This document shows, piece after piece, positions 5,131 to 45,477 of a stretch of DNA of 64,000 nt (position 1 is its first letter; each line of letters begins with the position of its first letter). The position numbers and the translations under genes were made by a program. The DNA is from Mycolicibacterium boenickei (GTDB lineage: Bacteria > Actinomycetota > Actinomycetes > Mycobacteriales > Mycobacteriaceae), in NCBI RefSeq assembly GCF_010731295.1, contig NZ_AP022579.1, forward strand, positions 3,286,001 to 3,350,000. Direction: 5' to 3'. The notes beneath the pieces were generated by a model. The model saw only the letters and a program-made list of their open reading frames with translations, was not told where the DNA came from and ran no database searches.

Positions 5131-5144
5131 CCGGGCCGGCCGCA

Positions 5145-6062: not shown

Positions 6063-6091
6063 CGAGGACCGAGCGCGGGCGATGCGGGGCC

Positions 6092-6152
6092 GCCGATTTC
6101 GACGCTGGGGTCGTGCTTCTTCGCTCGAAGCGACCTGGGCGTCGAAAACGGC
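6092..6152. repeat. long intergenic palindrome between convergent genes
   Basis: Arms of 22 bp (6092-6113 and 6131-6152) pair with only a few mismatches and begin and end with GCCG/CGGC. The inner loop can pair again (CTTC/GAAG). It lies between the convergent F420 enzyme and hydrolase genes, so it may act as a bidirectional terminator, or be one of the palindromic intergenic repeats of mycobacterial genomes. Confidence 0.65.
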
Positions 6153-6167
6153 GCAGTGGGAGGGAAC

Positions 6168-21141: not shown

Positions 21142-22215
21142 GTGCCGAGACCTTTGCGAATCGTCGTCTGGTCGACGGGCGGCGTCGGATCGATAGCGAT
21201 CGACGCGATCGCCGGGCGTCCGGATCTCGAACTGGCCGGCGTCTGGGTGCACTCGGCGGCGAAGGTGGGACAGGACGCGGGCGTGTTGGCCGGGCGCGCC
21301 GCGCTCGGCGTGCAAGCGACCAACGACGCCGACGCCCTGATCGAGTTGGCCCCCGACTGCGTGGTGTACGCGGCGAGTGGGCCAGACCGTGACGGCGGCG
21401 CGGTGCCGGACTATCTGCGTCTGCTGAACGCCGGGATCAACGTGGTGTCAACGACATCGACCGGGCTTGTGTACCCGCCCGCCTACTACTCCGTTGAGTG
21501 GCGCGACCAAATGGAGGTGGCGGCGAAGGCGGGCGATTCGTCGTTCTTCGCGTCGGGAGTCTTTCCCGGGTTCGGTTCAGATCAGCTGGCGCTCACGCTG
21601 GCGACACAGTCCAAGAAGATCGACCGCATCACGGTTACCGAGGTGTCCCTCAATGACCACTATCCGGTGGCCGATGTGATGATGGACGGGATGGGATTCG
21701 GCCGCGAGCTGGAATTCGAACCGATGCTCAAGACACCGGGATTCATCGAGATGGCGTGGAAGGCGCCGATTCACCTGATGGCCGATGCGCTCGGGGCCGA
21801 GGTGTCCGAGATTCGCGGCTCCCTGGACCGGCGGATCACCGAGCGCGACATCGAGGTGGCGTTCGGCACGATCGCCGCGGGGACGTGCGGAGCCGTCTGC
21901 ACGCGTGCGGCCGGCGTGGTGAACGGGCGCGAGGCCATCGTCATCGAACACGTCATCCGGATGTCACGCGACGTCGCGCCCGACTGGCCGGCGTCGGAAT
22001 TCGACGCCACCTACCGGGTGGACATCGGGGGTGACCCTGACATCCACTGCGCGATGAACCTGGGGGAGGACGAAGGCCACGGTGCCGGGCGGGCCGCGAT
22101 GGCCGCCACCGCGATGCGGGTGGTCAACGCGATTCCCTACGTCGTCGATGCCCCTGCCGGCCTGTTGAGCTCGCTCGATATCCCGAATACGTTGCCGCGG
22201 TTTGTTTTCGACTAG
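21142..22215 (+). CDS. DapB-like NAD(P)H-dependent oxidoreductase
   Basis: 357 residues resembling dihydrodipicolinate reductase-like and 2,4-diaminopentanoate dehydrogenase-like proteins. The Rossmann start is RIVVWSTGGVGSIAIDAI, followed by the INVVSTTSTGLVYP region near residue 105 and a C-terminal substrate domain with EVSLNDHYPVADVM. The real substrate of mycobacterial members is mostly unknown. GTG at 21142 follows GAGGAG. Its stop overlaps that of the convergent regulator within CTAG, leaving no room for a separate terminator. Confidence 0.82.
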   Translation: MPRPLRIVVWSTGGVGSIAIDAIAGRPDLELAGVWVHSAAKVGQDAGVLAGRAALGVQATNDADALIELAPDCVVYAASGPDRDGGAVPDYLRLLNAGINVVSTTSTGLVYPPAYYSVEWRDQMEVAAKAGDSSFFASGVFPGFGSDQLALTLATQSKKIDRITVTEVSLNDHYPVADVMMDGMGFGRELEFEPMLKTPGFIEMAWKAPIHLMADALGAEVSEIRGSLDRRITERDIEVAFGTIAAGTCGAVCTRAAGVVNGREAIVIEHVIRMSRDVAPDWPASEFDATYRVDIGGDPDIHCAMNLGEDEGHGAGRAAMAATAMRVVNAIPYVVDAPAGLLSSLDIPNTLPRFVFD

Positions 22216-23564
22216 CGCGCGACCACACCGCGCAGGCTGGTGTCGCGGACGTGAATCTGTGATGCGCGCGTGCCCAGCTCTCGCAGGATGTTCTCGGGTA
22301 TCCAGCCGACCCCGATCACCGACCGGGCCAGCATTTCGTTCGACGGGCTGTCGATGCTGATCTCGCCGGCCTTGATCCCATCGGCGAGAAGCGATTTCAC
22401 CTGCTTGACACGCTTGGTGAACAACCACCCGGGGTTGGGTGTGTCCGGGGGCGACTGACGCATCCAGGCCAGTTGGATGCGGAATTCGTCTCCGAACTGG
22501 TCGAGCGCGTTGGTGTGGATCCAGCTGAGCGCGTCGAGTTTCTCGACCGTCGTGCCCTGGGACCCGAGGACCTCTGTCCAGCCCACCGCGATCTTCTCGC
22601 CGAAAGACTGCATGATCGCCGCGAGCAGTTCGTCCTTCGACCCGATGAGCCGGTAGACCGTGCCGGTACCCATGCCCGCTGCGGAGGCGATGTCCCGCAC
22701 GGTCGTGCTCTCGTAGCCGCGGCGGCCGAACTCGGCCCGCGCCACGGCCCGGATGTGCGCGGTCTTGTCGTCGGCCTCGGACCGGGCCTCCTCGATCCAG
22801 CTGCGGACCACGGCATCGGCTGCCGCGAACGGGACGGACGCATCGAGTTCGGCGTCGGTGGGGTGACCGGTCGACAAGCCTTCCAGGAGAATCCGGCACA
22901 GCAGGGTGGCAACCTTCTCCGGTGCGGCGTTGTGGCGCATCACATCGAGGCCGACCTGCAGCATGGACTGGCAGATCCGGTCGGCCAGAACGGCCAGGTC
23001 GACGTCGGAGCGCAGGTAACCGGCCCAGCGGGCGGCCCGCAGGGTCTGCTGCATGGCATCCAGCGTCGCCGTCGGCCGGCGCTGCGCCAGCGCGACGAGG
23101 TCGGGGTTGGAGCTCGGGCTCTCGTAGAACGACATCTGCAGTGCCGCGCGGTGGGCGACAGCGCAGCGCGCGATATCCGAGCCAAGGGCGGCGATGCGGT
23201 CGAACGGCGACGCCGGATCGGGACCGTCCAGCCGGGTCTGCGCGTGCTCGGCGATGCGGTCGAGATCCTCGTGATACCGCTCGAGCAGCTCCACCAGGAT
23301 CGCTTCCTTCGATTCGAAATGGTGGTACAGACTGCCGGGAAGTATGCCGGCCGAATCCGCGATCTCTTGCAGGGAGGTACGGAGGCCCGACGTGGCGATC
23401 AGCGACGCGGCAGTCTCGAGGATCTCGGTGCGGCGCGTGCGGTCCTCGGCTGCGGCACCGACATCAGCTGCGCGACCTGGGGTGCGCTTGAGCGTCTTGC
23501 GCTCCCCAGGCGTTACCTGGGGACGGCCCACAGCGGCTCCACGATGATTGCTGGCTCCCGTCAT
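22212..23564 (-). CDS. double-TetR (Mce3R-like) transcriptional regulator
   Basis: A 450-residue protein with two complete TetR repressor units in one chain. The first HTH (about residues 50-95) contains TSLQEIADSAGILPGSLYHHF, and the second (about residues 280-325) contains VRDIASAAGMGTGTVYRLI. Tandem TetR fusion is unusual and is the architecture of Mce3R, a repressor of lipid-metabolism genes in M. tuberculosis. It is not beside an mce operon here; the mce genes are 20 kb away. A copy of the second regulatory element lies 15 bp upstream of its start, so it is probably autoregulated and controls the divergent cluster. Confidence 0.88.
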   Translation of the reverse strand: MTGASNHRGAAVGRPQVTPGERKTLKRTPGRAADVGAAAEDRTRRTEILETAASLIATSGLRTSLQEIADSAGILPGSLYHHFESKEAILVELLERYHEDLDRIAEHAQTRLDGPDPASPFDRIAALGSDIARCAVAHRAALQMSFYESPSSNPDLVALAQRRPTATLDAMQQTLRAARWAGYLRSDVDLAVLADRICQSMLQVGLDVMRHNAAPEKVATLLCRILLEGLSTGHPTDAELDASVPFAAADAVVRSWIEEARSEADDKTAHIRAVARAEFGRRGYESTTVRDIASAAGMGTGTVYRLIGSKDELLAAIMQSFGEKIAVGWTEVLGSQGTTVEKLDALSWIHTNALDQFGDEFRIQLAWMRQSPPDTPNPGWLFTKRVKQVKSLLADGIKAGEISIDSPSNEMLARSVIGVGWIPENILRELGTRASQIHVRDTSLRGVVAR

Positions 23565-23718: not shown

Positions 23719-24648
23719 TCACGTGGTGACGCCGAGCCGTTCGGTCACCGCGAACACCTCGTCGTAGATCGACCCCGGAATCGTGAACGGCTCTGTCGCA
23801 GCGATTTCCGAGAGGCGGGTGGCGACGTCGTCAGCGCTGGGGGTGCTGCCCGGCGGCGCCATCCAGCCCTCGCTCAAACCGATGAAGACGCGGGCGAATC
23901 GACCCGCGCAGGCCGAGAAGTTCTGGTGGCTGAGCGTGCAGTCGCGGCTGGCCAGGTACACCACCAGCGGTGCGACGAGTTCCGGTCGGATCGCGTTGAA
24001 GAATCCGTTGTCTTCAAGGACTTTCGGGTCGCCGAGGGTCTCGCTGACCATTCGGGAGATGCCGAACGGCAGGACGGTGTTGGCGAGGATGCCGTGCGGA
24101 GCTCCCTCGAGGGCGATCACGTTGGTGAGCCCGACCAGGCCGGCCTTGGCGGCCGCGTAATGCGCCTCCAGGTGCTGACCGAACATTCCCGCCGACGATG
24201 CGATGAAGACGAATCGGCCGTAGCCCTGGCTCTTCATCACCCGGTACGCGGGCTGGGCCAGGTAGAAGCCGCCGTCGAGGTGGACGCTCAGCATGCGTCG
24301 CCAATCCTCGGGGGTCAGTTCGTCGAAGGGGATGCTGTTGAAGATGCCGGCGTTGCTCACGACGGCGTCGAGCCGACCGAACCGTTCGACCGCGGTGCGG
24401 ACGATCGCCGCACCGCCCTCTGGGGTGTCGACCGAGTCGTAGGACGCGACCGCGGTGCCGCCGGCCGCCGTGATCTCCTCTACCACCTGGTCGGCCACTG
24501 CGGCGTCCGAGCCCTGGCCCGCCATCGTGCCGCCCAGGTCGTTCACCACGACAGCGGCCCCGAGCCGTGCCAGTTCGAGCGCGTAAACCCGGCCAAGACC
24601 GCGCCCGGCGCCGGTCACGATGGCTACCTGGGTATTGAAGTCGATCAC
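23719..24648 (-). CDS. SDR family oxidoreductase
   Basis: A 309-residue classical short-chain dehydrogenase: TGAGRGLGRVYA cofactor loop, NDLGG after beta-2 (NAD preference), NAG near residue 97, and the Ser-Tyr-Lys triad with YAAAK near residue 165. The C-terminal extension of about 50 residues is like that of peroxisomal multifunctional-enzyme SDR domains, which oxidise 3-hydroxyacyl-CoA. GTG at 24648 behind AAGGGCGG is chosen; the long open frame further upstream is antisense to the NorD-like and ATPase genes. Divergent from the NorD-like gene across a shared element. Confidence 0.88.
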   Translation of the reverse strand: MIDFNTQVAIVTGAGRGLGRVYALELARLGAAVVVNDLGGTMAGQGSDAAVADQVVEEITAAGGTAVASYDSVDTPEGGAAIVRTAVERFGRLDAVVSNAGIFNSIPFDELTPEDWRRMLSVHLDGGFYLAQPAYRVMKSQGYGRFVFIASSAGMFGQHLEAHYAAAKAGLVGLTNVIALEGAPHGILANTVLPFGISRMVSETLGDPKVLEDNGFFNAIRPELVAPLVVYLASRDCTLSHQNFSACAGRFARVFIGLSEGWMAPPGSTPSADDVATRLSEIAATEPFTIPGSIYDEVFAVTERLGVTT

Positions 24649-24716
24649 ATTGCCGCCCTTGCCAGTTGATGTTGCCGGCTCGTTCGATTGACTCCGGTGG
24701 GACCGAACTCTACGGT

Positions 24717-24736
24717 GGAACAGATATTTGGTCAAC
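24717..24736. promoter_or_regulatory. AGATATTTGGT-type element, copy 2 (SDR/NorD divergent promoter)
   Basis: GGAACAGATATTTGGTCAAC, the best copy, lies between the divergent SDR and NorD-like starts and could serve both. Confidence 0.65.
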
Positions 24737-24762: not shown

Positions 24763-26448
24763 GTGTCGGACGGCGGTGGCAAGGATCGATTCTCCGGGTT
24801 GGGCATGCTGGCCTCGGCGCTGGCGGCACGCCCAGTCGCGGTGGCTGCCGTCGATGCGGGTACCGGACCGTGGACGGACGGCGAGACGGTGTTCGTCGAC
24901 CCGGCTGCGCCGGCACCCGCGCGGCTTGAGTCGGTGGCGGTTCAGGCGTCGCTGATCGCCGCAGGCAGCCTGGACCCCGAGGTGATCGGCGCACTCGTTC
25001 GCCATCGTCGCCTGGCCAAGCGCTACCTTGCGATCGAAGGCCATCGAGCCTTGTTGGCCAATCGCACCCTGTTGCCGAATTCCCTTGCTGCCCTGGTTGA
25101 CCGGAGCATGGGTGAGCGCACTGACACGCCGGCGGCGTCCCTGGAGCTCGCCCGCGGCCGCGACGTGGTGACCGACCCTCCGGCGGCGTTCGGGGTGATC
25201 CGCGCCAAGAAGGTACTGGCGGCATGCGCGGCGGCCAGGCCCGCGGATGAACACTCGGTCGGCCATATCCCGCGGCGGCAAGGTGACCAGGACCTTGAGG
25301 AACTCGACGACAACGACATCGATGATTCCGATGACCCCGATCTGTTCTCCAGCCCGGTCGGCGGCGGCGGGGCGATCGGAAAATGGCTCAAGAAGCTGTT
25401 GTCCTCGGCACGCAAGACGGGGGGCAACGGCGGGGGGCCGCCCGGTGCCGACTCGCCGACCCACCGCACCAATTCGACGAAGCGTGGGGTGCACGCGGTC
25501 TCGTCGTTGGCCACCACCCCTTCGGAGGAAGTCGTCGACATCAAGACCGAAGGGGTGAAGTACCCGGAATGGAACGCCGAGCGCAAGGTGTACCGGCTCG
25601 ACTGGTGCACGGTTCGCGAGGCTGATCCGCAGATCAAGCCGTACGCCACCCAGCAGATCGAGGATGCGATCAGCGTGCGCCGTCCGTTGGCGCGCCTCGG
25701 CATGGGGCTGCATCGGCGCCACCGCCAACCGCAGGGCGACGACATCGACATCGACGCCGCGCTGGAGGCCCGCGTGGAAGTCCGGGCCGGATCGGTCCCT
25801 GACGAGGCTGTGTACCTGGACAGTCTGCGGCGCCGGCGGGACCTGTCGGTCCTGCTGTTGCTCGATGTCTCCGGCTCGACCGCGGAGCCGGGCACCGTCG
25901 GCCGTACGGTGCACCAGCAGCAGCGCACGGCGGTCGCCCACCTGATGGCGGCGTTGCACGATCTGGGCGACCGGGTGTCCTTGTACGCCTACTATTCCCA
26001 GGGCCGGTCGGCGGTGACCATGGTTCCGGTCAAGCGGTTCGACGACCATCTGGATGCGCAGGTGATCCGGCGGTTGAACAGCCTTGAGCCAGGCTCGTAT
26101 TCGAGACTCGGGGCGGCGATCAGGCACGGCTCGGCGGTGTTGGAGGAGCGCGGTGGCACCTCGCGGCGACTGCTGGTGGTGCTGTCCGACGGGCTGGCCT
26201 ACGACCACGGATACGAGCGGGCGTACGGCGCCGCCGATGCGCGACGCGCCCTGACCGAGGCGCGGCGCCGAGGTACCGGCGCCGTGTGCCTGACCATCGG
26301 TGCCAGTACCGATGTGGAGTCGCTGCGCCGGGTGTTCGGTAGTACCGCCCACGCCACCATCTCCGGTCCCGATCAGCTCGCCGGTGTCATCGGCCCGATG
26401 TTCCGCTCGGCGATCCGCTCCGGAGAGGTTCGGCGCCGGGTGTCGTGA
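24763..26448 (+). CDS. NorD/CoxE-like VWA-domain protein
   Basis: About 561 residues. The N-terminal half has no clear motif except an acidic stretch (EELDDNDIDDSDDPDLF, near residue 190) followed by a Gly-rich linker. The C-terminal third is a von Willebrand A domain with the MIDAS motif DVSGSTAEPG near residue 370 and LLVVLSDGLAYDHGYERAYG near residue 470, as in NorD. NorD-type proteins pair with NorQ-type AAA+ ATPases to insert metals into, or remodel, enzymes such as NO reductase. GTG at 24763 follows CGGGGG; earlier starts would place the regulatory element inside the gene. Confidence 0.87.
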   Translation: MSDGGGKDRFSGLGMLASALAARPVAVAAVDAGTGPWTDGETVFVDPAAPAPARLESVAVQASLIAAGSLDPEVIGALVRHRRLAKRYLAIEGHRALLANRTLLPNSLAALVDRSMGERTDTPAASLELARGRDVVTDPPAAFGVIRAKKVLAACAAARPADEHSVGHIPRRQGDQDLEELDDNDIDDSDDPDLFSSPVGGGGAIGKWLKKLLSSARKTGGNGGGPPGADSPTHRTNSTKRGVHAVSSLATTPSEEVVDIKTEGVKYPEWNAERKVYRLDWCTVREADPQIKPYATQQIEDAISVRRPLARLGMGLHRRHRQPQGDDIDIDAALEARVEVRAGSVPDEAVYLDSLRRRRDLSVLLLLDVSGSTAEPGTVGRTVHQQQRTAVAHLMAALHDLGDRVSLYAYYSQGRSAVTMVPVKRFDDHLDAQVIRRLNSLEPGSYSRLGAAIRHGSAVLEERGGTSRRLLVVLSDGLAYDHGYERAYGAADARRALTEARRRGTGAVCLTIGASTDVESLRRVFGSTAHATISGPDQLAGVIGPMFRSAIRSGEVRRRVS

Positions 26449-26507
26449 TGTCAAGTCCCGGAATGCCATTGGAGTCGACGGTGGATGCCAGCCGTGGCGG
26501 GAAACGG

Positions 26508-26527
26508 TTGAAACAAACATCTGTTCC
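26508..26527 (-). promoter_or_regulatory. AGATATTTGGT-type element, copy 3 (ATPase promoter)
   Basis: On the minus strand it reads GGAACAGATGTTTGTTTCAA, matching copy 2 at 13 of the first 14 bases. It lies in the 132-bp gap before the ATPase gene, next to TTAGGCT, a possible -10. Confidence 0.6.
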
Positions 26528-26580
26528 GCGTTAGGCTCGTGGAGTACCGCAGCGTTGCGGATACGACGAAAGGTGTGTCG

Positions 26581-27429
26581 ATGGTCAACGAGTCCGGGCT
26601 CGCTCACCAGAACGGTGCCAGTTCGCAGGCCTTGAGTGAGCGTCCCTACTACAAGCCCGTCGGCAATGAAGAGACCGTTTTCAAGGCGGCGTATCGCCAA
26701 GGTCTTTCGCTTGTCCTCAAGGGGCCGACCGGGTGTGGCAAGACGCGTTTCGTCGAGGCGATGGCTCACGACCTCGGTCGGCCACTGATCACCGTCGCCT
26801 GTCATGATGACCTGACCACCGCCGACCTTGTCGGTCGGTACCTGCTCCGGGGTGACGAGACCGTCTGGGTGGACGGGCCGCTCACCCGCGCAGTGCGCGA
26901 GGGGGCGATCTGCTACCTGGACGAGGTGGTCGAAGCCCGCCAGGACACCACGGTGGTGTTGCACCCACTCGCCGACTACCGCCGCCAGCTGCCGATCGAG
27001 CGCCTGGGCATCACGCTGGACGCGGCGCCGGGGTTCGGCCTGGTGATGTCGTACAACCCGGGCTACCAAAGTGTCCTCAAGGACCTCAAGGACTCCACCC
27101 GGCAGCGAATGGTGGCCATCGAGTTCGGTTTCCCGGCCCCCGACGTCGAAGAGGGCATCATCACCCACGAGGCGGGGGTGGATCAGCGCACGGCCGCCGA
27201 GTTGGTGCGGTTCGGACAGGCCATCCGGCGGCTGGAGACCAGCGGCATGCGTGAAGTCGCCTCGACCCGCGTGCTGATCGCGGCCGGGCGGCTGATAGCC
27301 GAAGGCCTGCCCGTCGCCGTGGCGGCCAGGGTGGCGATCGCCGGGCCGTTGACCGATGACGTTGCGGTGAGCCGCGGTCTGCACGAGCTGATCGATGTCT
27401 ACCTGGGCGAATCGGCAGCCGGTGATTGA
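26581..27429 (+). CDS. NorQ/CbbQ-type MoxR AAA+ ATPase
   Basis: A 282-residue AAA+ ATPase: Walker A GPTGCGKTRF near residue 48, Walker B AICYLDEVVEA near residue 107, a sensor-1 MSYNPGYQ near residue 147, and the CbbQ-family C-terminal region. These hexamers use ATP to remodel a client enzyme, recruited by a VWA partner such as the adjacent NorD-like protein. ATG at 26581 follows AAAGG at 7 bp. The usual clients (rubisco, NorBC, CO dehydrogenase, gas-vesicle proteins) are absent from the window. Confidence 0.92.
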   Translation: MVNESGLAHQNGASSQALSERPYYKPVGNEETVFKAAYRQGLSLVLKGPTGCGKTRFVEAMAHDLGRPLITVACHDDLTTADLVGRYLLRGDETVWVDGPLTRAVREGAICYLDEVVEARQDTTVVLHPLADYRRQLPIERLGITLDAAPGFGLVMSYNPGYQSVLKDLKDSTRQRMVAIEFGFPAPDVEEGIITHEAGVDQRTAAELVRFGQAIRRLETSGMREVASTRVLIAAGRLIAEGLPVAVAARVAIAGPLTDDVAVSRGLHELIDVYLGESAAGD

Positions 27430-27455
27430 CGCGGTGGGCCAGCCCCGTTACGTTC

Positions 27456-27475
27456 AGAACAAATATTAGGTCGAC
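27456..27475. promoter_or_regulatory. AGATATTTGGT-type element, copy 4 (binding-protein promoter)
   Basis: AGAACAAATATTAGGTCGAC matches copy 2 at 16 of 20 positions and lies 42 bp upstream of the binding-protein start. Confidence 0.65.
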
Positions 27476-27516
27476 CCCGGTGGTCCCTGCGATGGACGCC
27501 GCATCATGGAGGTCAG

Positions 27517-28632
27517 ATGTCGTACGAGAGCACTGCGGAGCCCATCAAGGTCGGCTACCTGATGGACTTCACGTTGCCGCCCGGGTTCCCGGAAGAACTG
27601 CGGGCCTCGTTCACCCGGACGTTTGACCTGGTGTTCGAAGAGGCCGTCGAGCAAGGGTTGATGGACCGGCCGGTGCAGATGATCTACCGCGAGGTGGAAG
27701 GGCTGCCGAAGGGTTCGGTGAAGGCCGTGATCGACGCCTACGGCGAGCTCGTCGACGAGGGCTGCCTGGTGGTGTTCGGGCCGAACATCACCGACAACTG
27801 CGTGCCGCTGCGGGAAGCGATCGAAGAGCGCTTCAAGGTGCCGGCGATCAGCGTCACGGGAACCGACGATTGGCTCGGCGAGTGGACGTTCGCCTTCCCG
27901 CAGGGATCGATGACGGACGAACCGATCTTTCTGGCGGATCTCGTCGCGAAGCGAGGGCTGACCGACATCGGTGTGCTCGTGGAGCAGAACCTCATCGGCG
28001 ACAGCTATCTGAAGAATCTGCGAACCGCATGTGCCCGCAAGGGTATTCGGATCGTCGCCGAAGCGGCGATCGCGCAGACCGCCCAGGACATCAACGCCGC
28101 GGTCAGCACACTGCACGAAGCCAAGGCCGAGGCGATCGTGCATCTCGGGTTCGGTTTCGGCATCGTCTTCATCAACCCGGCGCTTGAGGCCGTCAACTGG
28201 GATCCGCCGCGCTTCACCACCACCGCGTTCCAGAACGCCTGGGTGAACCCGATCATGTGGAATGCGTTCCTCGGCTGGATCGGGGTCGATCAGTACGACG
28301 AGGGCAACCCCGTCGGACAGGCCTGGATGGATAGATACGCCAAGCGGTACAACGGAAGTCGTCCCGAGTACTGCGTGACGGTGGTCAACCACGACGTCGC
28401 CGCGACGCTGGTGCGTGCCTTCACCGATGCCCATCCGCTGAGTCCGCGCGGGGTCAAGGAGGCGCTCGAGCGCGTGAAGATGATGCCGGCCGCTTCCGGT
28501 GCGCCCGGAACCCGGGTGTCCCTCGGGAAGTGGACCCGGAGGGCATGGATGGGATCGGGCTACCTGGTCGCCCGGACGCTCGATGCGGACGGCATCAATT
28601 CGCGCCTGGTCGATCGCTTCGGGGAGGAGTGA
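27517..28632 (+). CDS. periplasmic-binding-protein fold protein without signal peptide
   Basis: A 371-residue type I periplasmic-binding fold (Leu/Ile/Val- or urea/amide-binding group). Two alpha/beta lobes are seen, with KVGYLMDFTLPPG opening the first, GCLVVFGPNITDNCVP and TGTDDWLGEW near residues 88-120, and DIGVLVEQNLIGDSYL in the second lobe. It begins directly with the first strand: no signal peptide, no lipobox, and no ABC permease or ATPase nearby. It may thus be a cytoplasmic ligand sensor, like AmiC of Pseudomonas, rather than a transporter subunit. ATG behind GGAGG. Confidence 0.85.
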   Translation: MSYESTAEPIKVGYLMDFTLPPGFPEELRASFTRTFDLVFEEAVEQGLMDRPVQMIYREVEGLPKGSVKAVIDAYGELVDEGCLVVFGPNITDNCVPLREAIEERFKVPAISVTGTDDWLGEWTFAFPQGSMTDEPIFLADLVAKRGLTDIGVLVEQNLIGDSYLKNLRTACARKGIRIVAEAAIAQTAQDINAAVSTLHEAKAEAIVHLGFGFGIVFINPALEAVNWDPPRFTTTAFQNAWVNPIMWNAFLGWIGVDQYDEGNPVGQAWMDRYAKRYNGSRPEYCVTVVNHDVAATLVRAFTDAHPLSPRGVKEALERVKMMPAASGAPGTRVSLGKWTRRAWMGSGYLVARTLDADGINSRLVDRFGEE

Positions 28633-28633
28633 C

Positions 28634-29764
28634 ATGACCACACAGGAATCGCTACCACCCGATACGCGGGTGCAGCGGCCGGTGCGCAAGGGCCCGAACT
28701 GGGGCCGGATGATCGCACTGCTCGCGTGGCTCGGTTTTCTCGGCCTGTTCGTCGCGGTCGGGCGTACGGACGTCGACCCGCGGGTGGCCAATCCGAACGT
28801 CGAGGGCCGACCACGTCCCGTCGGGTTCCTGACCGCGTTCGACAGCTGGCAGATCATTCCGCAGGTGGGCGCGGTGATCATCGTCGTGGTGTTCACCGTC
28901 ATGTTCATCGTCGGCTGGCGTAAGAACCCCGGTAGCCCGGTGCTGCTCATGGTGCTGTGCACGACGCTGATCGTCTGGCAGGACCCGATCATGAACTGGT
29001 CGCCGTACGCGGTCTACAACCCGATGCTGTTGCACTGGCCGGAGAATTGGTACCTCGTCATGATGTCGCCGACGGTGGAACCGTTCATCGTCTTCGGCTA
29101 CGTGCTGTTCTACTTCGGGCCGTACTTCCCGGGGATCTGGATTCTGCGCAAGCTGCAGGCCAAACACGGTCCGGAGGCGTTCGTCACCCGGCACCCGCTG
29201 ATCAGCCTGGGCGCGCTGGTACTGGTCATCGGTTTCATCTTCGACGCCATCCTCGAGGTCAGCCTGGTCCGCACCGGGCTGTACATCTACTCGCAGGCGA
29301 TTCCGTTCGGAACGCTGTTCCCCGGCAGCACCTTTCAGTTCCCGCTGATCTGGGAGTCCCTGTCGGTGACCTTCGTGATGGTCCCGGCGGCGATTCTGGT
29401 GTACCGGGACGACACGGGAAAATCGGTGGCGGAGAAGCTCGCTGCGAAGGCGAGGCTCTTTCCGTCGAAGCCCGTGCTCGGCACATTCCTGGTGATGTTC
29501 GCGATCATCAACGTGTCGTACTTCGCCTACGGCGGCTGGTTCTGGGCGATCAAGGCCAGCGGGCTGGCCACCTCGGTGGCATGTCCGTGGCCGTATCCCG
29601 AAGCGAAGATCTATGACCCGCAGGGCTATTACCGGGCGAACGGAGCCGAGGGACCCTATTCGGTAGGCAAGTGGTCCACCTGGCAGCAGGGCCCGGCCCG
29701 CAACACCGACGTCGAGTTGGGGTCGAAGAGCAACCGGTGCGCGACGGGGAACCAGAATGGCTGA
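28634..29764 (+). CDS. AveC-like (spirocyclase family) membrane protein
   Basis: 376 residues with about seven hydrophobic segments (e.g. ALLAWLGFLGLFVAVG, VIIVVVFTVMFIVGW, LISLGALVLVIGFIF). Conserved features include TTLIVWQDPIMNW, EPFIVFGYVLFYFGP and GLYIYSQAIPFGTLF, matching the layout of AveC, the avermectin spiroketal cyclase/dehydratase, and its many uncharacterised mycobacterial relatives. Its chemistry here is unknown. It starts one base after the binding-protein stop and overlaps the next SDR by eight bases, so it belongs tightly to this operon. Confidence 0.82.
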   Translation: MTTQESLPPDTRVQRPVRKGPNWGRMIALLAWLGFLGLFVAVGRTDVDPRVANPNVEGRPRPVGFLTAFDSWQIIPQVGAVIIVVVFTVMFIVGWRKNPGSPVLLMVLCTTLIVWQDPIMNWSPYAVYNPMLLHWPENWYLVMMSPTVEPFIVFGYVLFYFGPYFPGIWILRKLQAKHGPEAFVTRHPLISLGALVLVIGFIFDAILEVSLVRTGLYIYSQAIPFGTLFPGSTFQFPLIWESLSVTFVMVPAAILVYRDDTGKSVAEKLAAKARLFPSKPVLGTFLVMFAIINVSYFAYGGWFWAIKASGLATSVACPWPYPEAKIYDPQGYYRANGAEGPYSVGKWSTWQQGPARNTDVELGSKSNRCATGNQNG

Positions 29765-30647
29765 GCCCCGGACAGTCCTCATCACGGGCGCGTCCCGTGG
29801 GCTCGGCTTCGCATCCGCCACGCGCCTGTATCGCGAGGGGTGGCGCGTGGCGGCTGCGATGCGTTCGCCGGATCGGGGAATGGCACTGCTGCGGGCGGCG
29901 ACGGGAGCCGCCGAGGACGACGAGCGGCTCATCGGTATCCAGCTCGACCTCACCGACGCCGCATCGATCGCCGCGGCGGCGAAGAGCATCACCGAAACCG
30001 TCGGCGCGCCACATGCGGTGGTGCACAACGCCGGGATCTCGGCGGCGGGAATGGTCGAAGAGACGCCGCCAGACCTGTGGGAGCGGATGTTCGCGACCAA
30101 CGTCTTCGGCCCGGTGATGCTCACCAAGGCGCTGCTGCCATCGATGCGAGAGGCTGGGCGGGGCCGCATCGTGCTGATCTCCAGTGCTGCCGGTGTACGC
30201 GGAATGCCGGCAACCGCACCGTATTCGGCGGTCAAGGGGGCGCTGGAAAGGTGGGGCGAATCGATGGCGGGGGAGGTCGCCCCGTTCGGGATCGGCGTCA
30301 CGATTCTGGTCACCGGGACCTATGACACGGAGATCATCACCGACGCGGGCACGACAGACGTCCGCGACCTGGACGGACCCTATGCCCGGCATCACCGCAC
30401 GATGGACAAGCGGGGGCGGGCCATGATGAAGAGCGCCGCTCGGCCCCCCGAGAAGTTCGCCTCGGGCCTGGCCAGAGCCCTCGACAGCCGACGGCCGTTC
30501 GTCAAGGCCGCTGTCGGCCCGGACGCACGAATGTTGTTGATCGCCAACCGCTTGCTGCCCACGGCGGGCTTGCACCAGATGACCCGGCTGATGATGGGGA
30601 TCCCGCGGTTCGGCGCACTACGAGGGGAGAACCCGGGCCATGGCTGA
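29757..30647 (+). CDS. SDR family oxidoreductase
   Basis: A 296-residue classical SDR: ITGASRGLGFAS cofactor loop, NAGIS near residue 92, Ser in LISSAAGV and YSAVK near residue 157. It should oxidise an alcohol or reduce a ketone with NAD(P). It overlaps the AveC-like gene and the aldehyde dehydrogenase by the same ATGGCTGA arrangement, indicating translational coupling along the operon. Confidence 0.9.
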   Translation: MAEPRTVLITGASRGLGFASATRLYREGWRVAAAMRSPDRGMALLRAATGAAEDDERLIGIQLDLTDAASIAAAAKSITETVGAPHAVVHNAGISAAGMVEETPPDLWERMFATNVFGPVMLTKALLPSMREAGRGRIVLISSAAGVRGMPATAPYSAVKGALERWGESMAGEVAPFGIGVTILVTGTYDTEIITDAGTTDVRDLDGPYARHHRTMDKRGRAMMKSAARPPEKFASGLARALDSRRPFVKAAVGPDARMLLIANRLLPTAGLHQMTRLMMGIPRFGALRGENPGHG

Positions 30648-32142
30648 GCAGTCAAGAGTCCACTTCGAATCGAGAATGCTGATCGACGGCAAGCTCGTCG
30701 ACGGCGAGGCCGGCACGTTCACCAACATCAACCCGGCCAATGAAGACGTGCTGGGGGAGGTCTCGGACGCATCGAAGGCGGACATGAACCGGGCCATCGA
30801 CGCGGCCCGCCGGTCATTCGACGACACTGCCTGGTCGACCGACCATCAACTCCGCAAGCGGTGCCTCGAACAACTGCACGAGGCCCTCGAACGCGAGGTG
30901 GAGGAGCTGCGCGAGGAGCTCATCTGCGAGGTCGGCGCCCCGCGTGCGGTGACGCACGGACCGCAACTCGACGCCCCGCTCGCCGACGGCCTCAAATACC
31001 CGGCCCGGCTGATCGAGACATTCCCGTGGGAAACCGATCTCGGCGACACGGTGGTATCCGTCACCGGGGTGAACACCACCCGCAAGGTGTGGCACGAGCC
31101 GGTCGGTGTGGTCGGTGCCATCGTGCCGTGGAACTTCCCGTTCGAGGTGGCCGTCAACAAGCTTGGGCAGGCGTTGGCTGCGGGCAACACAGTGGTGCTC
31201 AAACCCGCGCCCGATACACCGTTCAACGCCACCCGGCTCGGCCGGCTCATCGCCGAGAACACCGATATCCCAGCGGGTGTGGTGAATGTCGTGACGGCGT
31301 CGGACCACCTGGTCGGCGAAGAACTGACGCTGTCGCCGAAGGTCGACATGATCTCGTTCACCGGCTCCACGGCCGTGGGCAAGCGGATCATGGAGAAAGG
31401 TGCCGCGACCATGAAGCGGCTGTTTCTCGAGCTGGGCGGCAAGTCCGCCACCATCGTGTTGGAGGATTTGGAGGACGCAGCCTTCAATTCTGCATGTTTG
31501 ATCGGTATCGGCCCGTTGCTGCACGCCGGGCAGGGTTGCGCCGCTCCCACCCGAATGCTGTTGCCGCGCTCGCGCTACGACGAGGGTGTCGCGATCCTGA
31601 AGGCCATCTACGAGAACATCGCCCCCGGTGATCCACAGGATCCCGGAACGCTCTGCGGTCCGGTCATCTCGGCCAAACAGCAGTCCCGCATCCTTGGCTA
31701 CATCAGGACCGGCGTCGACGAAGGCGCCACCATGCTCGTCGGCAGTACGGAAGCGCCGACGGCATCGGATCTGTATACCAAGGGATTCTGGGTCAACCCA
31801 ACCCTTTTCACCGATGTGGACAACTCGATGACCATCGCCCAGGAGGAGATCTTCGGACCGGTCCTCGTTGTCATTCCCTACGAGGACGAAGACGACGCCG
31901 TCCGAATCGCCAACGACAGCCCGTACGGACTCGCCGGCAACGTCATGTCCGGCTCGCTGGACCGGTCGCTGGCCGTCGCACGCCGGCTCCGCGCCGGGTT
32001 CATCGGGCTCAACGGCACCGCGGGATACGGCGCCGACACCCCGTTCGGCGGCTACAAGAACAGCGGCGTCGGGCGCCAGAACGGGGTCGTGGGCTTCAGC
32101 CAGTACACCGAGGTGAAATCAGTCGCCTACCCGGCGCAGTAG
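30640..32142 (+). CDS. aldehyde dehydrogenase
   Basis: A 500-residue NAD(P)-dependent aldehyde dehydrogenase of full length. VPWNFPFEVAVNKLG lies near residue 160, the cofactor loop is FTGSTAVGKRI, the general base Glu is in LELGGKS, and the catalytic Cys is in HAGQGCAAPTR near residue 300. It should convert an aldehyde, perhaps made by the upstream SDR or a P450, to an acid. Start ATG with GAGGGGAGA upstream. Confidence 0.94.
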   Translation: MAEQSRVHFESRMLIDGKLVDGEAGTFTNINPANEDVLGEVSDASKADMNRAIDAARRSFDDTAWSTDHQLRKRCLEQLHEALEREVEELREELICEVGAPRAVTHGPQLDAPLADGLKYPARLIETFPWETDLGDTVVSVTGVNTTRKVWHEPVGVVGAIVPWNFPFEVAVNKLGQALAAGNTVVLKPAPDTPFNATRLGRLIAENTDIPAGVVNVVTASDHLVGEELTLSPKVDMISFTGSTAVGKRIMEKGAATMKRLFLELGGKSATIVLEDLEDAAFNSACLIGIGPLLHAGQGCAAPTRMLLPRSRYDEGVAILKAIYENIAPGDPQDPGTLCGPVISAKQQSRILGYIRTGVDEGATMLVGSTEAPTASDLYTKGFWVNPTLFTDVDNSMTIAQEEIFGPVLVVIPYEDEDDAVRIANDSPYGLAGNVMSGSLDRSLAVARRLRAGFIGLNGTAGYGADTPFGGYKNSGVGRQNGVVGFSQYTEVKSVAYPAQ

Positions 32143-32154
32143 AGGAGAACGTCT

Positions 32155-33363
32155 GTGGAACAGCTTTTTGACGACCTCGAGGACTTCGGCTCGTTCGACG
32201 ACGCCGTCTCCGGTGACGTCCGGGACCCGTTCCCGGAACTCGCAAGGCTTCGGCGCGAGGAACCGATCCAGCGGATCGACATGTCCGCGATGCCGGGGGA
32301 GGAAGGCAAGCCCGTCTTCATCGTGTACCGCTACGAGGACGCCCAGCAGATGCTGCGCGACAACCTGACGTTCTCGTCGTCGGGTGTCATCGCGGCGTTC
32401 GGCCCGGTGCTCGGCGAGCGGGTGATGCTGGGAATGGACGAGCCGGTGCACGGCCGGCTGCGTTCGCTGGTATCGAAGGCCTTCTCGCAAAAGGCCTTGG
32501 CGCGTTGGGAAGACGAGCTTGTCGGCCGCGTCGCCAACGAGCTCATCGACAATTTCGCTTCCAGGGGCAAGGTCGACCTGGTCAAGGAATTCACGTTCGA
32601 CTATCCGAGCCGCATCATCGCCGGGTTGTTGGGACTGCCCGAGGAGGACTATCCGCAGTTCCAGCGCTGGTCCATCTCGCTGCTGAGCTGGATCATGAAC
32701 CCGGAGCGTGGGCTGGCGGCGTCGGCTGCGCTGTGTGAGTACTTCGCACCGATCCTGCAGGCCCGTCGTGCCGAGCCCAAGGACGACATGATCAGCCTGC
32801 TCACCGAGGCGGAGATCGACGGCGAGAAGCTCACCGACGAAGAGATCTTCTCGTTCCTCCGACTGCTGCTGCCCGCGGGTGTGGAGACCACATACCGGTC
32901 ACTGGGCAACCTGCTGTTCGGATTGCTCTCGGACACAACGCAGCTGGACGCGGTCAGGGCCGACCGATCGCTGCTGCCGCAGGCCATCGAGGAAGCTGTG
33001 CGCTGGAACCCGCCGTTGCTGACCATCACCCGCACCACGACCTGTGCCACCGAGCTGGGTGGGGTGCACATCCCGGAGGGGTGTTCGGTGATGCCGATGC
33101 TCGGTTCGGCGAATCGACAGGAAGATCGGTGGGAAAACCCCGACGAGTTCGACATCTTCCGCACCGCCAAGGGCAATCTCGGCTGGGGCCACGGTGTGCA
33201 CGTGTGCCTGGGAATGCACCTCGCGCGCCTCGAGATGCGCACTGCCATCAACCTGCTGCTGGACCGGTTGCCCAACCTGCGGCTGGACCCGGACGGAGAC
33301 GATCCGCACATCCGTGGCCAGGTCTTCCGTTCGCCGACATCGCTACCGGTGCTGTTCGGATGA
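32155..33363 (+). CDS. cytochrome P450
   Basis: A 402-residue P450 of a different subfamily from its downstream neighbour. The I-helix is LLPAGVETTYRS, the K-helix EAVR, and the heme loop LGWGHGVHVCLGMHLARLE, with Trp where Phe is usual. GTG start 12 bp after the aldehyde dehydrogenase stop, behind GAGGAGAA. No ferredoxin gene is adjacent, so electrons must come from a carrier encoded elsewhere. Confidence 0.94.
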   Translation: MEQLFDDLEDFGSFDDAVSGDVRDPFPELARLRREEPIQRIDMSAMPGEEGKPVFIVYRYEDAQQMLRDNLTFSSSGVIAAFGPVLGERVMLGMDEPVHGRLRSLVSKAFSQKALARWEDELVGRVANELIDNFASRGKVDLVKEFTFDYPSRIIAGLLGLPEEDYPQFQRWSISLLSWIMNPERGLAASAALCEYFAPILQARRAEPKDDMISLLTEAEIDGEKLTDEEIFSFLRLLLPAGVETTYRSLGNLLFGLLSDTTQLDAVRADRSLLPQAIEEAVRWNPPLLTITRTTTCATELGGVHIPEGCSVMPMLGSANRQEDRWENPDEFDIFRTAKGNLGWGHGVHVCLGMHLARLEMRTAINLLLDRLPNLRLDPDGDDPHIRGQVFRSPTSLPVLFG

Positions 33364-33372
33364 CAACTCTGG

Positions 33373-33430
33373 CGAGCAGACACATAACTGCACGAAATCG
33401 CGTGATTTTGGGCAGTTTTGCGTCTGCTCG
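33373..33430. repeat. GAGCAGACGCAAAAC palindromic repeat, copy 2
   Basis: Arms 33373-33391 and 33412-33430 pair at 17 of 19 positions, with an inner CGAAATC/GATTTTG stem. The right arm is the same as in the copy at 20845. It lies between two P450 genes of one operon, ending 21 bp before the second start, where it could attenuate or separate transcripts. Confidence 0.8.
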
Positions 33431-33451
33431 CGGAGGAGAAAGGAACCTGAT

Positions 33452-34720
33452 GTGACCGATTTCGAGACAGTGGATTTCTTCACCGACCCGGCCCTGGTGC
33501 CCGACCCGTATCCCTACTTCGATCATCTGCGGTCGAAGTGTCCCGTCTCCCATGCCACTCCGTTCAACGTACTGGCGGTCACCGGCTATGACGAGGCACT
33601 GGCCGTCTACAAGGACCCGGCGTTCTCGTCGTGTGTTTCGGTGGCGGGGCCGTTCTCCGGCCTGCCGTTCGGACCGGGGGAGAGTGACGACGTCTCGGAT
33701 CTGATCGAGGAGCACCGGCTCGCGGTGCCGATGGGCGAGCACATCACGTCGCAGGATCCTCCGCTGCACACCCGCACCCGCGGGCTGATGAACAAGCTGA
33801 TCACTCCCAAACGTCTCAAGGAGAACGAGGACTTCATGTGGCGGCTGGCCGATCAGCAACTCGACACGTTCGTCGACCGCGGATCGGCCGAGTTCCTGGC
33901 CGACTACGCCAAGCCGTTCTCGCTTCTGGTGATCGCCGACCTGCTGGGTGTCCCGGGCGAGGACCACGAGGAGTTCAAGGCGGCGTTCGCGCTGGAGACC
34001 GTCGGCGAGCTCGGCAAGGAAGCACCGACGACGCACAATCCCCTGCAGTGGCTCAACGACAAGTTCTACGCCTACATCGAGGACCGCAGGCGCGCACCGC
34101 GTGACGACGTGCTGACCGGGCTGGCCCAGGCGAAGTACGAAGACGGATCGACCCCCGAGATCGAGGACGTCATGAACCTGTCGACGTTCCTGTTCGCGGC
34201 GGGAACGGAGACCACGACCAAGTTGGTCAGCTCGGCGGTCCGATTCATCGGAGACAACCCGGGATTCGAGACGATGCTGCGCGACGACCGGAGCAGGATT
34301 CCGTCCTTCCTGGAGGAGACGTTGCGGTTGGAGAGCCCGGTCAAATCACACTTCAGGATGGCCAGCCGGACCACGAGCATCGGTGACACCGAGGTGCCTG
34401 CCGGGACCACCGTGATGGTGCTGCCTGGGGCATGCAACCGTGACGAACGTAAGTTCCCCGACCCCAATGTGTTCCACCCCGACCGGACGAATGTGCGCGA
34501 ACAGATCGCATTCATCCGGGGTGTGCATTCGTGCCCGGGCGCACCACTGGCCCGCGCGGAAGGCCGGATCTCGTTGAACCGCATCTTGGACCGGATGTCC
34601 GACATCACGATCTCCACCGAGCATCACGGCCCCGCCGAGGACCGTCGGTACACCTATGAGCCGACGTTCATCATGCGCGGGCTCAGCGAACTGCACATCG
34701 AATTCAAACCGGCCGCCTGA
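33452..34720 (+). CDS. cytochrome P450, paralogue with altered heme loop
   Basis: 422 residues, closely related to the P450s at 3344 and 55768 (shared LITPKRLKENEDFMWRLAD and FSLLVIADLLGVP). The I-helix is FAAGTETTTK and the K-helix ETLR. The heme loop reads AFIRGVHSCPGAPLAR: the near-invariant Gly after Phe is Ile, which should alter the turn below the heme. GTG at 33452 follows GGAGGAGAAAGG; upstream in-frame sequence runs into the preceding P450 gene. Confidence 0.92.
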   Translation: MTDFETVDFFTDPALVPDPYPYFDHLRSKCPVSHATPFNVLAVTGYDEALAVYKDPAFSSCVSVAGPFSGLPFGPGESDDVSDLIEEHRLAVPMGEHITSQDPPLHTRTRGLMNKLITPKRLKENEDFMWRLADQQLDTFVDRGSAEFLADYAKPFSLLVIADLLGVPGEDHEEFKAAFALETVGELGKEAPTTHNPLQWLNDKFYAYIEDRRRAPRDDVLTGLAQAKYEDGSTPEIEDVMNLSTFLFAAGTETTTKLVSSAVRFIGDNPGFETMLRDDRSRIPSFLEETLRLESPVKSHFRMASRTTSIGDTEVPAGTTVMVLPGACNRDERKFPDPNVFHPDRTNVREQIAFIRGVHSCPGAPLARAEGRISLNRILDRMSDITISTEHHGPAEDRRYTYEPTFIMRGLSELHIEFKPAA

Positions 34721-34745
34721 CCGGCCAGCACAGGTAGGAGCACAC

Positions 34746-35624
34746 ATGACCGGAAAGCTCGACGGCAAGGTCGCTTTCATCACCGGAGCCGCCCGCGGGC
34801 AAGGTCGGGCACATGCGATCGCGATGGCCCGGGAAGGCGCCGACATCATCGCGGTCGACATCTGCCGTGACATCCCGTCCAACCCTTATCCGTTGGCCAC
34901 TCCCGACGACCTCACCGAAACCGAAAGGGCGATCAAAGAACTCGGCCGACGCGTCGTCGCTCGCGTGGCCGACGTCCGCGAGCGCCACGAACTGCGCGAC
35001 GCGGTCGAGGCCGGAATCGCCGACCTCGGCAAGATCGACATCGTGGTCGCCAACGCCGGCATCCTGCCGATGGCGATGGGCCGACCGGACCCGATGCAGT
35101 TCGTCGACGCCTCCGACGTCGACCTCGTCGGCGTGATGAACACCGTCGCGGTCACGGTCCCGCACCTTCCCGACGGATCGTCGATCATCGTCACCGGCTC
35201 GACCGCCGGCATGATCCGGGGTACCACCGACAACCCCAACATGGGTCCGGGCGGGGCGGGCTACGGGTGGAGCAAGCGCGTCGTCATCGAGTACGTCGAG
35301 GAGATGAGCCTGCATCTGGCCCCGAAAATGATCAGGGTCAACGCGATTCACCCGACCAACTGCAACACGCACCTGTTGCAGAACGACGGCATGTATTCCA
35401 TGTTCCGGCCCGATCTCACCGAGCAGGGCAAGAAAGCCACCCGCGAGGATGCCGAGCCACTGTTCACCATCTTCCAAGCGATGCCGATTCCGTACATCGA
35501 ACCCGAGGACATGGCCAACCTCGGCGTGTTCCTCGCCAGCGACGACAGCCGCTACATCACCGGACAACAAATCCGCGTGGATGCGGGCTCACTGCTCAAG
35601 TGGCCCAACGGACCTGGGCGGTAA
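34746..35624 (+). CDS. mycofactocin-type SDR family oxidoreductase
   Basis: 292 residues with ITGAARGQGRAHAIAMAREGADIIAVDIC at the N terminus (given here as the family signature, split by the cofactor glycines), NAGIL near residue 98 and YGWSKR as the active-site Tyr-Lys. This signature defines SDRs that keep NAD bound and pass electrons to mycofactocin. It probably oxidises an alcohol made by one of the upstream P450s. ATG after AGGTAGGAG, 25 bp behind the P450. Confidence 0.9.
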   Translation: MTGKLDGKVAFITGAARGQGRAHAIAMAREGADIIAVDICRDIPSNPYPLATPDDLTETERAIKELGRRVVARVADVRERHELRDAVEAGIADLGKIDIVVANAGILPMAMGRPDPMQFVDASDVDLVGVMNTVAVTVPHLPDGSSIIVTGSTAGMIRGTTDNPNMGPGGAGYGWSKRVVIEYVEEMSLHLAPKMIRVNAIHPTNCNTHLLQNDGMYSMFRPDLTEQGKKATREDAEPLFTIFQAMPIPYIEPEDMANLGVFLASDDSRYITGQQIRVDAGSLLKWPNGPGR

Positions 35625-35630
35625 CGCGCA

Positions 35631-35747
35631 GTGGGCGCAATCATCATGCTCGGCAGCCTGTTCGTCCTGATCGCCCTGATCGTGGGTCTGGTGCTGCATT
35701 TCGATCCTGAAGCGCATCGGGCACCGGGCCAGGAGGTCGAGAAGTGA
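35631..35747 (+). CDS. 38-residue single-pass membrane microprotein
   Basis: A short frame starting GTG with one hydrophobic segment (IIMLGSLFVLIALIVGLVL) and a short charged tail ending GQEVEK. Its stop overlaps the GTG of the second AveC-like gene (GTGA), and that gene's CAGGAGG ribosome site lies within its tail codons. This coupling and the clean membrane helix support a real gene, perhaps a small subunit of the AveC-like protein. ATG at 35646 is an alternative start. Confidence 0.6.
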   Translation: MGAIIMLGSLFVLIALIVGLVLHFDPEAHRAPGQEVEK

Positions 35748-36523
35748 GTGTCGACCTTCTGATCAAGGCCGGTGTCACGTTCGCTTATCTCACGGGCCTT
35801 GGCTTCCTGGCGATCGGCATCTACCTGAGCTACCGGCGCGGGCGCCTGCATCCGTTGCTGCTGCTCTGTATCTCGGCGCTCTCGTTCTCCTGGATCGAGG
35901 CGCCGTACGACTGGGCGATGTATGCGCAGTTTCCGCCCGCGCTGCCGCGGATGCCTGCGTGGTGGCCGCTCGACATGACCTGGGGCGGGCTGCCGTCGGC
36001 CGTCCCCGTCGGCTACATGGGGTACTTCGTGCTGCCGGCCATCATCGGCGCAGCACTCGGGCGTCGGGCGAGCGGAAAGTGGAATTGGCGCCGGCCGCAG
36101 ACGTTGTTGCTGGTCGGGTTCGCCGTCGGGTTCTGCTGGGCCCTGTTCTTCAACGCGATCATCGGCGCGCGGCTCGGCCTGTTCTACTACGGCTACGTGA
36201 TCGAGGGGCTCGGCCTGTGGGAGGGGACCAAACACCAGTACCCGATCTACGACGCCATCGCGATGGGCATCCAGATGATGGTGTTCACCTACCTGCTGGG
36301 TCGCACCGATTCCGCGGGCCGCAACGTCATCGAGATGTGGGCCGACAAGATCTCCAAGACCCGGCTGCAGTCAGCGGTGCTGTCGGTGATCGCCGTCGTC
36401 GTGGTCGGGCACGCGGTCTACGGTGCGGTCTTCGCGCCGCACCTGGTCACCAAACTGGGCGGCTGGGTGACCGTCGGAACGACCGAGCAGCTGTTCCCCG
36501 GGGTCCCGAACCAGCCGAGATAG
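35744..36523 (+). CDS. AveC-like (spirocyclase family) membrane protein, second copy
   Basis: A 259-residue, shorter member with about six membrane segments, including the starting FAYLTGLGFLAIGIYLSYRR, LLLCISALSFSWIEAPYDWAMY, and FAVGFCWALFFNAIIGARLG. The W-x-E-x-P-x-D/N-W pattern and LGLFYYGYVIEGLGLW match conserved AveC-type positions, also seen in the larger protein at 28634. It closes the operon and is followed by a terminator hairpin. The reaction is unknown. Confidence 0.8.
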   Translation: MSVDLLIKAGVTFAYLTGLGFLAIGIYLSYRRGRLHPLLLLCISALSFSWIEAPYDWAMYAQFPPALPRMPAWWPLDMTWGGLPSAVPVGYMGYFVLPAIIGAALGRRASGKWNWRRPQTLLLVGFAVGFCWALFFNAIIGARLGLFYYGYVIEGLGLWEGTKHQYPIYDAIAMGIQMMVFTYLLGRTDSAGRNVIEMWADKISKTRLQSAVLSVIAVVVVGHAVYGAVFAPHLVTKLGGWVTVGTTEQLFPGVPNQPR

Positions 36524-44597: not shown

Positions 44598-44610
44598 GGC
44601 AGGGGACGCA

Positions 44611-45468: not shown

Positions 45469-45477
45469 GGAGAAGAG

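Follow-up and report, generated by a model that had tools for sequence, protein, structure and literature searches.

Gene content of the locus

The window analysed here is a stretch of 64,000 nucleotides from the 6.59 Mb genome of Mycolicibacterium boenickei (contig NZ_AP022579.1, positions 3,286,001 to 3,350,000). Our subject is a run of plus-strand genes at 24763-36523, in which a VWA protein and a NorQ/CbbQ-type AAA+ ATPase (NorQ) precede two AveC-like membrane proteins, AveC1 and AveC2. The run also encodes a periplasmic-binding-protein fold (the binding protein), two short-chain dehydrogenases (SDRs), an aldehyde dehydrogenase, two P450s and a microprotein. All of the families named in a first-pass annotation of this DNA were recovered in the one run, by Pfam and, for the mycofactocin coupling of the second SDR, by NCBIfam TIGR03971 (Table 1). 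Neighbouring genes overlap or almost touch: ends are shared over 8 bp by AveC1 and SDR1 (given an SDR1 start at 29757), over 8 bp by SDR1 and the aldehyde dehydrogenase (given a start at 30640) and over 4 bp by the microprotein and AveC2. The AveC_like domains of AveC1 and AveC2 score 219.6 and 261.2 bits against a Pfam cut-off of 26.6, and the best NCBIfam model for the aldehyde dehydrogenase is TIGR04284 (663 bits, under its cut-off of 775). Across the whole genome, CbbQ_C and AveC are each represented by three genes.

In the ATPase the AAA_5 and CbbQ_C domains both exceed their curated cut-offs (115.3 and 92.2 bits), and the protein matches the solved NorQ (9qhd; E 1e-93) along almost its entire length, as well as the CbbQ structure 6l1q (E 4e-86). 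The VWA protein matches solved NorD in its VWA half (E 1e-36), with a phmmer alignment that covers residues 264-550 only. Walker A, the GRxLL/IxxxxT motif of NorQ/CbbQ-type ATPases (described in PMC13036017) and the metal-ion-dependent adhesion site (MIDAS) are all intact in the pair. Judged by sequence, the pair is a NorQ/NorD-type machine.

In the proposal for NorQD, the ATPase twists the VWA protein and iron enters the membrane enzyme cNOR; the NorD MIDAS is required for activity and dispensable for NorQ binding (PMC13036017, PMC9976466). The window pair resembles the cNOR pair in the matches just given, in its MIDAS and GRxLL motifs and in having a membrane-protein neighbour. It differs in that this neighbour is AveC-like, that the N-terminal part of NorD is unmatched by sequence, and that the MIDAS Thr is replaced by Ser, as it is in 33 of the 36 scored VWA proteins of the system I loci described below. 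The MIDAS DxSxS itself is present in 71 of 72 VWA proteins, nor-type loci included, and reads DATGS in the remaining one.

Standard clients were looked for as well. Neither of two motifs, for NorB and for RuBisCO, matched in loci L007-L050, the NorB motif being an insensitive one that matches 14 of the 38 loci L051-L088; because of this low count we do not claim all of L051-L088 as nor loci. No COX1-type gene was found among the window genes scanned. RuBisCO (PF00016) had no match in the M. boenickei genome, with a control that was positive in 5 of 14, and NorB was not found there in a search made without a positive control. The earlier statement that no standard client is present holds within the scope of these NorB and RuBisCO searches. 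The pair shares its ATPase family with the RuBisCO activase CbbQ/CbbO and differs from it in this absence of RuBisCO.

Table 1. Features of the locus. The Pfam scan used the longest open reading frames (ORFs), so that some starts in it lie slightly upstream of the coordinates listed.
Feature	Position	Strand	Evidence or occurrence
Double-TetR candidate regulator (two TetR_N stretches)	22212..23531	-	24/36 system I loci
SDRup, divergent SDR, often kept with the cluster	23719..24648	-	22/36 system I loci
Candidate promoter TTGACT-N17-TACGGT, then 20-bp element TGGAACAGATATTTGGTCAA (24716-24735)	24688..24735	+	Conservation and spacing
VWA (NorD-like) protein, 561 aa, MIDAS DVSGS-S-D	24763..26448	+	Pfam VWA_2/VWA_CoxE; solved NorD VWA region, E 1e-36
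NorQ/CbbQ-type AAA+ ATPase, 284 aa, Walker A GPTGCGKT, GRYLLRGDET	26575..27429	+	AAA_5 and CbbQ_C; solved NorQ, E 1e-93
Binding protein (PBP), periplasmic-binding-protein fold without signal peptide, accessory	27517..28632	+	Peripla_BP_6, 5.7e-24
AveC1, AveC-like membrane protein and proposed client, with 7 hydrophobic segments predicted	28634..29764	+	PF17198, 5e-65
SDR1, short-chain dehydrogenase, usually adjoining AveC1	29757..30647	+	adh_short
Aldehyde dehydrogenase, Rv0768-like	30640..32142 (start 30640 or 30676)	+	Aldedh
P450a	32155..33363	+	Pfam p450
P450b, 422 aa	33452..34720	+	Pfam p450
Mycofactocin-coupled SDR	34746..35624	+	NCBIfam TIGR03971, 334.7 against a cut-off of 300 bits
38-aa microprotein with a single transmembrane segment, just upstream of AveC2	35631..35747	+	ORF call
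AveC2, second AveC-like membrane protein, 259 aa	35744..36523	+	PF17198, 1e-77

Linkage of NorQ/VWA pairs with AveC-like genes

The NorQ/VWA-AveC linkage is tight, old and repeated across several bacterial groups. We examined 121 genomes of the window's family, which are mutually related and so not independent; PF17198 matched in 19 of them and CbbQ_C in 17. Score bands (AveC above 200 bits, NorQ above 85 bits) were fixed only after a gap in the scores had been seen. The 27 strong AveC genes lie in 12 genomes, and the 18 strong NorQ genes fall in exactly those 12; the Fisher value for co-occurrence, 8.5e-17, overstates independence because the genomes are related and the bands were set after the gap was seen. 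For 17 of the 18 strong NorQ genes there is a same-strand AveC at a distance of 669-1545 bp, measured between the domain matches. The lone exception, G095:C22, is a remnant that shares synteny with L007, M. boenickei's own copy of the system II trio described below; its AveC is gone, 53 NorQ codons are left and the VWA gene is kept. Six more genomes of the window's genus, selected for having AveC, gave the same picture, with all ten strong NorQ genes less than 1.6 kb from AveC by the distances in the hit tables. The first-pass annotation had named a pair occurring mostly without AveC-like genes as the outcome that would speak against its proposal, and the opposite was found.

Wider loci were collected in a scan with the window NorQ, as the best 80 of 588 confirmed relatives; the closest are in Mycolicibacterium porcinum (98%) and M. 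peregrinum (94%). The system I set comprises 36 loci (L009-L044, L009 and L044 being near copies). Within it, by thresholds of our own choosing, AveC1 and the VWA gene each occur in 35 loci, SDR1 in 33, the binding protein in 32, P450a in 31, the aldehyde dehydrogenase in 29, P450b in 16 and AveC2 in 8, the later genes being undercounted because several loci are short. The sole locus without AveC1 in its stretch, L013, has one about 15.5 kb away, and in L043 SDR1 lies about 9 kb from AveC1. In L041 (9005-9967) an MPAB/Lcp gene of rubber oxygenase type stands directly before NorQ, in the place expected for VWA. AveC1, VWA and NorQ are all present in Solimonas (L037) and in delta-proteobacterial (L038) and Verrucomicrobia-labelled (L039) metagenome-assembled genomes (MAGs), and these three loci, of which L038 spans 6 kb and L039 12 kb, hold no relative of the binding protein, the aldehyde dehydrogenase or P450a over the thresholds. 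In L037, from Solimonas terrae, AveC1 occupies 3468-4577, SDR1 4577-5434, VWA 5467-7146 and NorQ 9959-10774. AveC was found in 1 of 370 genomes of the class to which Solimonas belongs, that one being the chosen centre itself, and no statistics are therefore given for this class; horizontal gain of AveC in Solimonas is our guess.

System II consists of the AveC-NorQ-VWA trio only, with overlapping genes; besides L007, it was found in Nocardia (L045/L046) and in a Pseudomonadales MAG. In both Nocardia loci the genes directly after it resemble an Mce operon, by appearance and not by scan. Other actinobacteria (L089, L050/L099) carry divergent AveC genes that also have NorQ and VWA close by. Among the genes compared, NorQ, VWA and AveC are the shared core of systems I and II and of L089/L050, and the P450s, the aldehyde dehydrogenase and the signal-less binding protein accompany this trio in some loci and not in others.

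These comparisons bear on two rival explanations. In the first, the client is P450a or P450b, which might need the machine for haem or for its conformation, and AveC merely belongs to the same pathway. The frequency of P450a in system I, mostly on the same strand, agrees with this, as do the divergent P450s found beside AveC1 in L037 and L039 and, 0.9 kb beyond the trio at L048, a relative of P450b (41%). However, P450a is lacking in L026 and on the opposite strand in L042 and L043, and five trios (L007, L045, L046, L047 and L107) contain no gene matched by BLAST with the window P450s. To our knowledge P450s are not usually in need of a MoxR/VWA chaperone, and we hold a P450 client, which the annotation had offered as one of two choices, to be highly unlikely. 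The second rival posits no client relation at all: the pair has the membrane or some different protein as its target, and all the genes move together as a catabolic island. Catabolic genes do cluster strongly, which counts for it. An action through the inner membrane has also been reported for RavA-ViaA (PMC9489729). Against it, the NorQ/VWA/AveC trio persists while the surrounding gene order varies, and the overlapping three-gene unit of system II is hard to account for as an island; we consider this explanation unlikely, less severely so than the P450 one.

A tree of 89 NorQ proteins, rooted at the midpoint, places the AveC-linked NorQs outside the system III group (below) in one group of 47 (support 98/81). 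Of these, 41 lie less than 4 kb from AveC, five have one at up to about 17 kb along their contig and one is cut by a contig end. Six of the 47 escaped our automatic label, which called for an AveC no more than 4 kb away inside the fetched stretch: L104 (716 bp away, beyond the stretch), L040 (4.4 kb), L037 (5.4 kb), L013 (about 15.5 kb), L090 (about 16.6 kb) and L049 (contig end).

The third NorQ/VWA pair of the M. boenickei genome stands beside another membrane protein, and such loci make up system III. Their NorQs form a second group of eight (support 100/99), the long-branched L092 included. The typical order has a 32-35-aa peptide ahead of VWA and NorQ, often with a 39-44-aa peptide after these, and then a 211-244-aa membrane protein and a 130-153-aa protein; L008 (8019-11786), L037 (11822-15758), L108 (2890-6713) and L117 show it with single-transmembrane microproteins and a membrane protein that is sometimes doubled. 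In the 121 genomes, 11 NorQ genes score between 70 and 85 bits, and every one of them has the system III membrane protein at 60-241 bp; G018 has this protein without such a NorQ, and G100 has a weak hit of 22 bits. With both kinds counted, NorQ genes above 70 bits number 29; 28 adjoin one of the two membrane proteins and the 29th is the G095:C22 remnant, three poorer hits (G082, G022 and G002; 25-40 bits) being left out. UniProt names some system III membrane proteins EXPERA/emopamil-binding, a label that comes from such database names and one weak Pfam match, PF05241 matching 1 of 23 members at E 1e-3, below its cut-off; the structure model has a predicted local distance difference test score of 69, and comparison of its fold gave no clear assignment. 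Kinship between the AveC-like and system III proteins was considered and rejected, with hhalign probabilities of 0.6% and 3% and no detectable similarity. AveC2 follows system III in L037 and L108. EXPERA/emopamil-binding-like proteins are mentioned in mycobacteria (PMC9903846, PMC4818103), and our literature search did not find system III described as a system. Taken together, the NorQ sequences suggest one NorQ lineage per client.

The VWA proteins vary most in their N-terminal region, the expected client contact, which is less conserved than the VWA part. Between the window and Solimonas proteins, identity is 39% in the N-domain and 65% in the VWA domain; between the window protein and that of system III in the same genome, it is 15% and 28%.

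AveC1 as the candidate client

AveC1 has seven predicted hydrophobic segments, and by charge its loops 93-101, 160-188 and 257-275 are probably cytoplasmic; its structure model found no fold match. In a small, hand-picked alignment, 20 AveCs of the linked kind (7 of system I, 4 AveC2, 6 of system II and 3 divergent) were set against 7 orphans. Three residues that distinguish the sets lie on predicted cytoplasmic loops: R172 (20/20 linked against 1/7 orphans), D260 (16/20, lacking in AveC2, against 0/7) and E267 (19/20 against 2/7, the other five orphans having Asp). W122, present in 20 linked proteins and no orphan, is on the opposite side. Acidic positions common to both sets, at 117 (27/27), 208 (23/27, not AveC2) and 240/241 (26/27), are predicted near the outer ends of helices. 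This pattern suggests that the client surface faces the cytosol and that the active site lies in the membrane's outer half.

AveC2 belongs to the system too. Score bands place it in 7 of the 121 genomes, each of them one of the 8 that have AveC1, and the two genes are often far apart; in G028 a block of SDR1, aldehyde dehydrogenase, P450b, mycofactocin SDR and AveC2 lies 1.7 Mb from NorQ-AveC1. A small peptide also stands before AveC2 in distant relatives (L029, L032, L036, L037, L101, L108, L110 and L112), and none was called in L111, L113 and L114; the 38-aa microprotein of the window has no Pfam match.

The binding protein begins MSYESTAEPIKVGY and has no signal peptide, as the annotation had held. 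Its projected N-terminus, YE[SG][ST]A[EQ]PIK, is conserved in all 31 loci read, and an upstream in-frame start is absent in 22 of these and present one to three times in nine; its match to the Leu/Ile/Val-binding proteins 4mpt/4q6w is weak (E 0.003). A cytosolic sensor of this kind would suit a repair function like that of CbbQ/CbbO, whose target is catalysis-inhibited RuBisCO (PMC9976466): the machine would strip an inhibitory ligand or dead-end product off AveC1, gated by the binding protein. Its occurrence in most system I loci fits this. The protein is, however, not found in L022, L037, L038 and L039 (L038 and L039 being short) nor in the system II loci L007, L045-L048 and L107, and is therefore not a general part of the machine; repair of this kind seems very improbable to us, and the ligand gating proposed earlier does not hold as a general rule.

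We think it rather probable, from the sequences and by analogy with NorQD, that the VWA/ATPase pair is a NorD/NorQ-type remodeller dedicated to the neighbouring AveC-like membrane protein, with AveC1 as its client in the window. Where the annotation had left the client of the ATPase between an AveC-like and a P450 enzyme, the AveC beside 17 of 18 strong NorQ genes and the AveC1 in the stretch of 35 of 36 system I loci favour the former. The NorQ hexamer would turn the VWA protein, as in NorQD, and the MIDAS or the N-domain of the latter may grip the cytoplasmic face of AveC1, which would thereby be opened for cofactor insertion or refolded into an active state. Metal insertion and cofactor-free remodelling appear about equally likely, metal being suggested by analogy only. 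Once active, AveC1 might work in an oxidising pathway that transforms an imported lipophilic compound, together with AveC2, the AveC2 microprotein, the SDRs, the aldehyde dehydrogenase and the P450s; the pair probably prepares the AveC-like protein for work on such a compound.

Several observations weigh against this interpretation. In L041 AveC1 and NorQ are present and VWA is not beside them. Ten of the 27 strong AveC genes (7 AveC2 and 3 others) are more than 2 kb from any NorQ, and seven orphan AveC genes (85-120 bits) occur in genomes without any CbbQ_C match, so that the AveC fold does not always depend on the machine. The residue contrast is weakened by the four AveC2 among the 20 linked rows, by their lack of D260 and by the Asp at 267 in five of the seven orphans. 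No histidine is conserved across the 27 aligned AveCs, only acidic positions, and a metal site is therefore not evident. The known AveC is a spirocyclase/dehydratase, and the word 'metal' occurs 0 times in the paper examined for it (PMC13303154).

The likeness of our proteins to the AveC of Streptomyces avermitilis is membership of PF17198, the family named for it. They differ in their neighbours, which are SDRs, aldehyde dehydrogenase, P450s and the chaperone pair; the ten cluster genes that were scanned include no polyketide synthase. Elsewhere an AveC family protein serves merely as a signature-indel marker for Mycolicibacter (PMC5819568). No publication joining AveC with NorQ/NorD was found in our literature search, which had subscription papers and preprints outside its scope.

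Some loci show AveC in other company. In L089 (9326-12023) the genes for AveC and a ferredoxin reductase overlap and a ferredoxin gene comes after them, and in L095 (4901-7650) it adjoins a ferredoxin gene; no gene in these stretches (14 kb in L089) matches the window P450s. The ferredoxin genes possibly supply electrons to AveC. In L096, L097 and L098 an orphan AveC recurs in mycobacteria together with an AMP-ligase-like gene, a relative of the mycofactocin-type SDR and a luciferase-like monooxygenase, the last identified by Pfam in L096 alone; no NorQ lies in these three stretches. Apparent fusions of AveC with an SDR (P0035, P0059) and of CbbQ_C with a system III protein (P0151) have out-of-frame junctions and were rejected as frameshift artefacts.

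Few clients of MoxR/VWA machines are known. The AveC-like and the EXPERA-like system III proteins are dissimilar, and each has its own NorQ/VWA pair and NorQ lineage; if this is true of their function, the machine would have been redirected on more than one occasion, and the two would be clean cases for how a VWA protein picks its client. Through the linkage, the function of AveC-like proteins outside polyketide pathways also becomes approachable; such proteins were found here in environmental mycobacteria, in Nocardia and in a small number of other bacteria. A wider and doubtful extension is that both kinds form an unrecognised class of enzymes in the membrane that depend on NorQD-type machines for their metal, with ferredoxin-fed oxidoreductases among them. 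Were metal loading true, NorQD would be a general, client-swapping loader of membrane metalloenzymes and not a denitrification specialist.

Regulation and surroundings

An exact copy of the 20-bp element TGGAACAGATATTTGGTCAA precedes the VWA gene in 26 loci from the best 80 of 588 and in 27 of 117 loci overall, L102 repeating L013. Its 19-bp core has a single site in the M. boenickei genome at up to 3 mismatches. Among the mycobacterial loci that carry the exact element is L049, whose VWA protein is only 53% identical in the best segment. A palindromic operator was considered and rejected, as the dyad symmetry was matched by 128 of 2000 shuffles. The TTG at 24688, which would open a longer VWA reading frame, is part of the candidate promoter, and 24763 is therefore the likelier VWA start. 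The double-TetR candidate regulator is a single polypeptide of 439 aa and also stands beside the cluster in the delta-proteobacterial L038.

Downstream, at 43803-53426 of the window, lies an MlaE/Mce-type lipid import operon, of which two genes were scanned. Amidohydrolases at 16099-17241 of the window and at 6963-8105 of L007 are 84% identical and lie near both of the AveC-NorQ-VWA systems of this genome.

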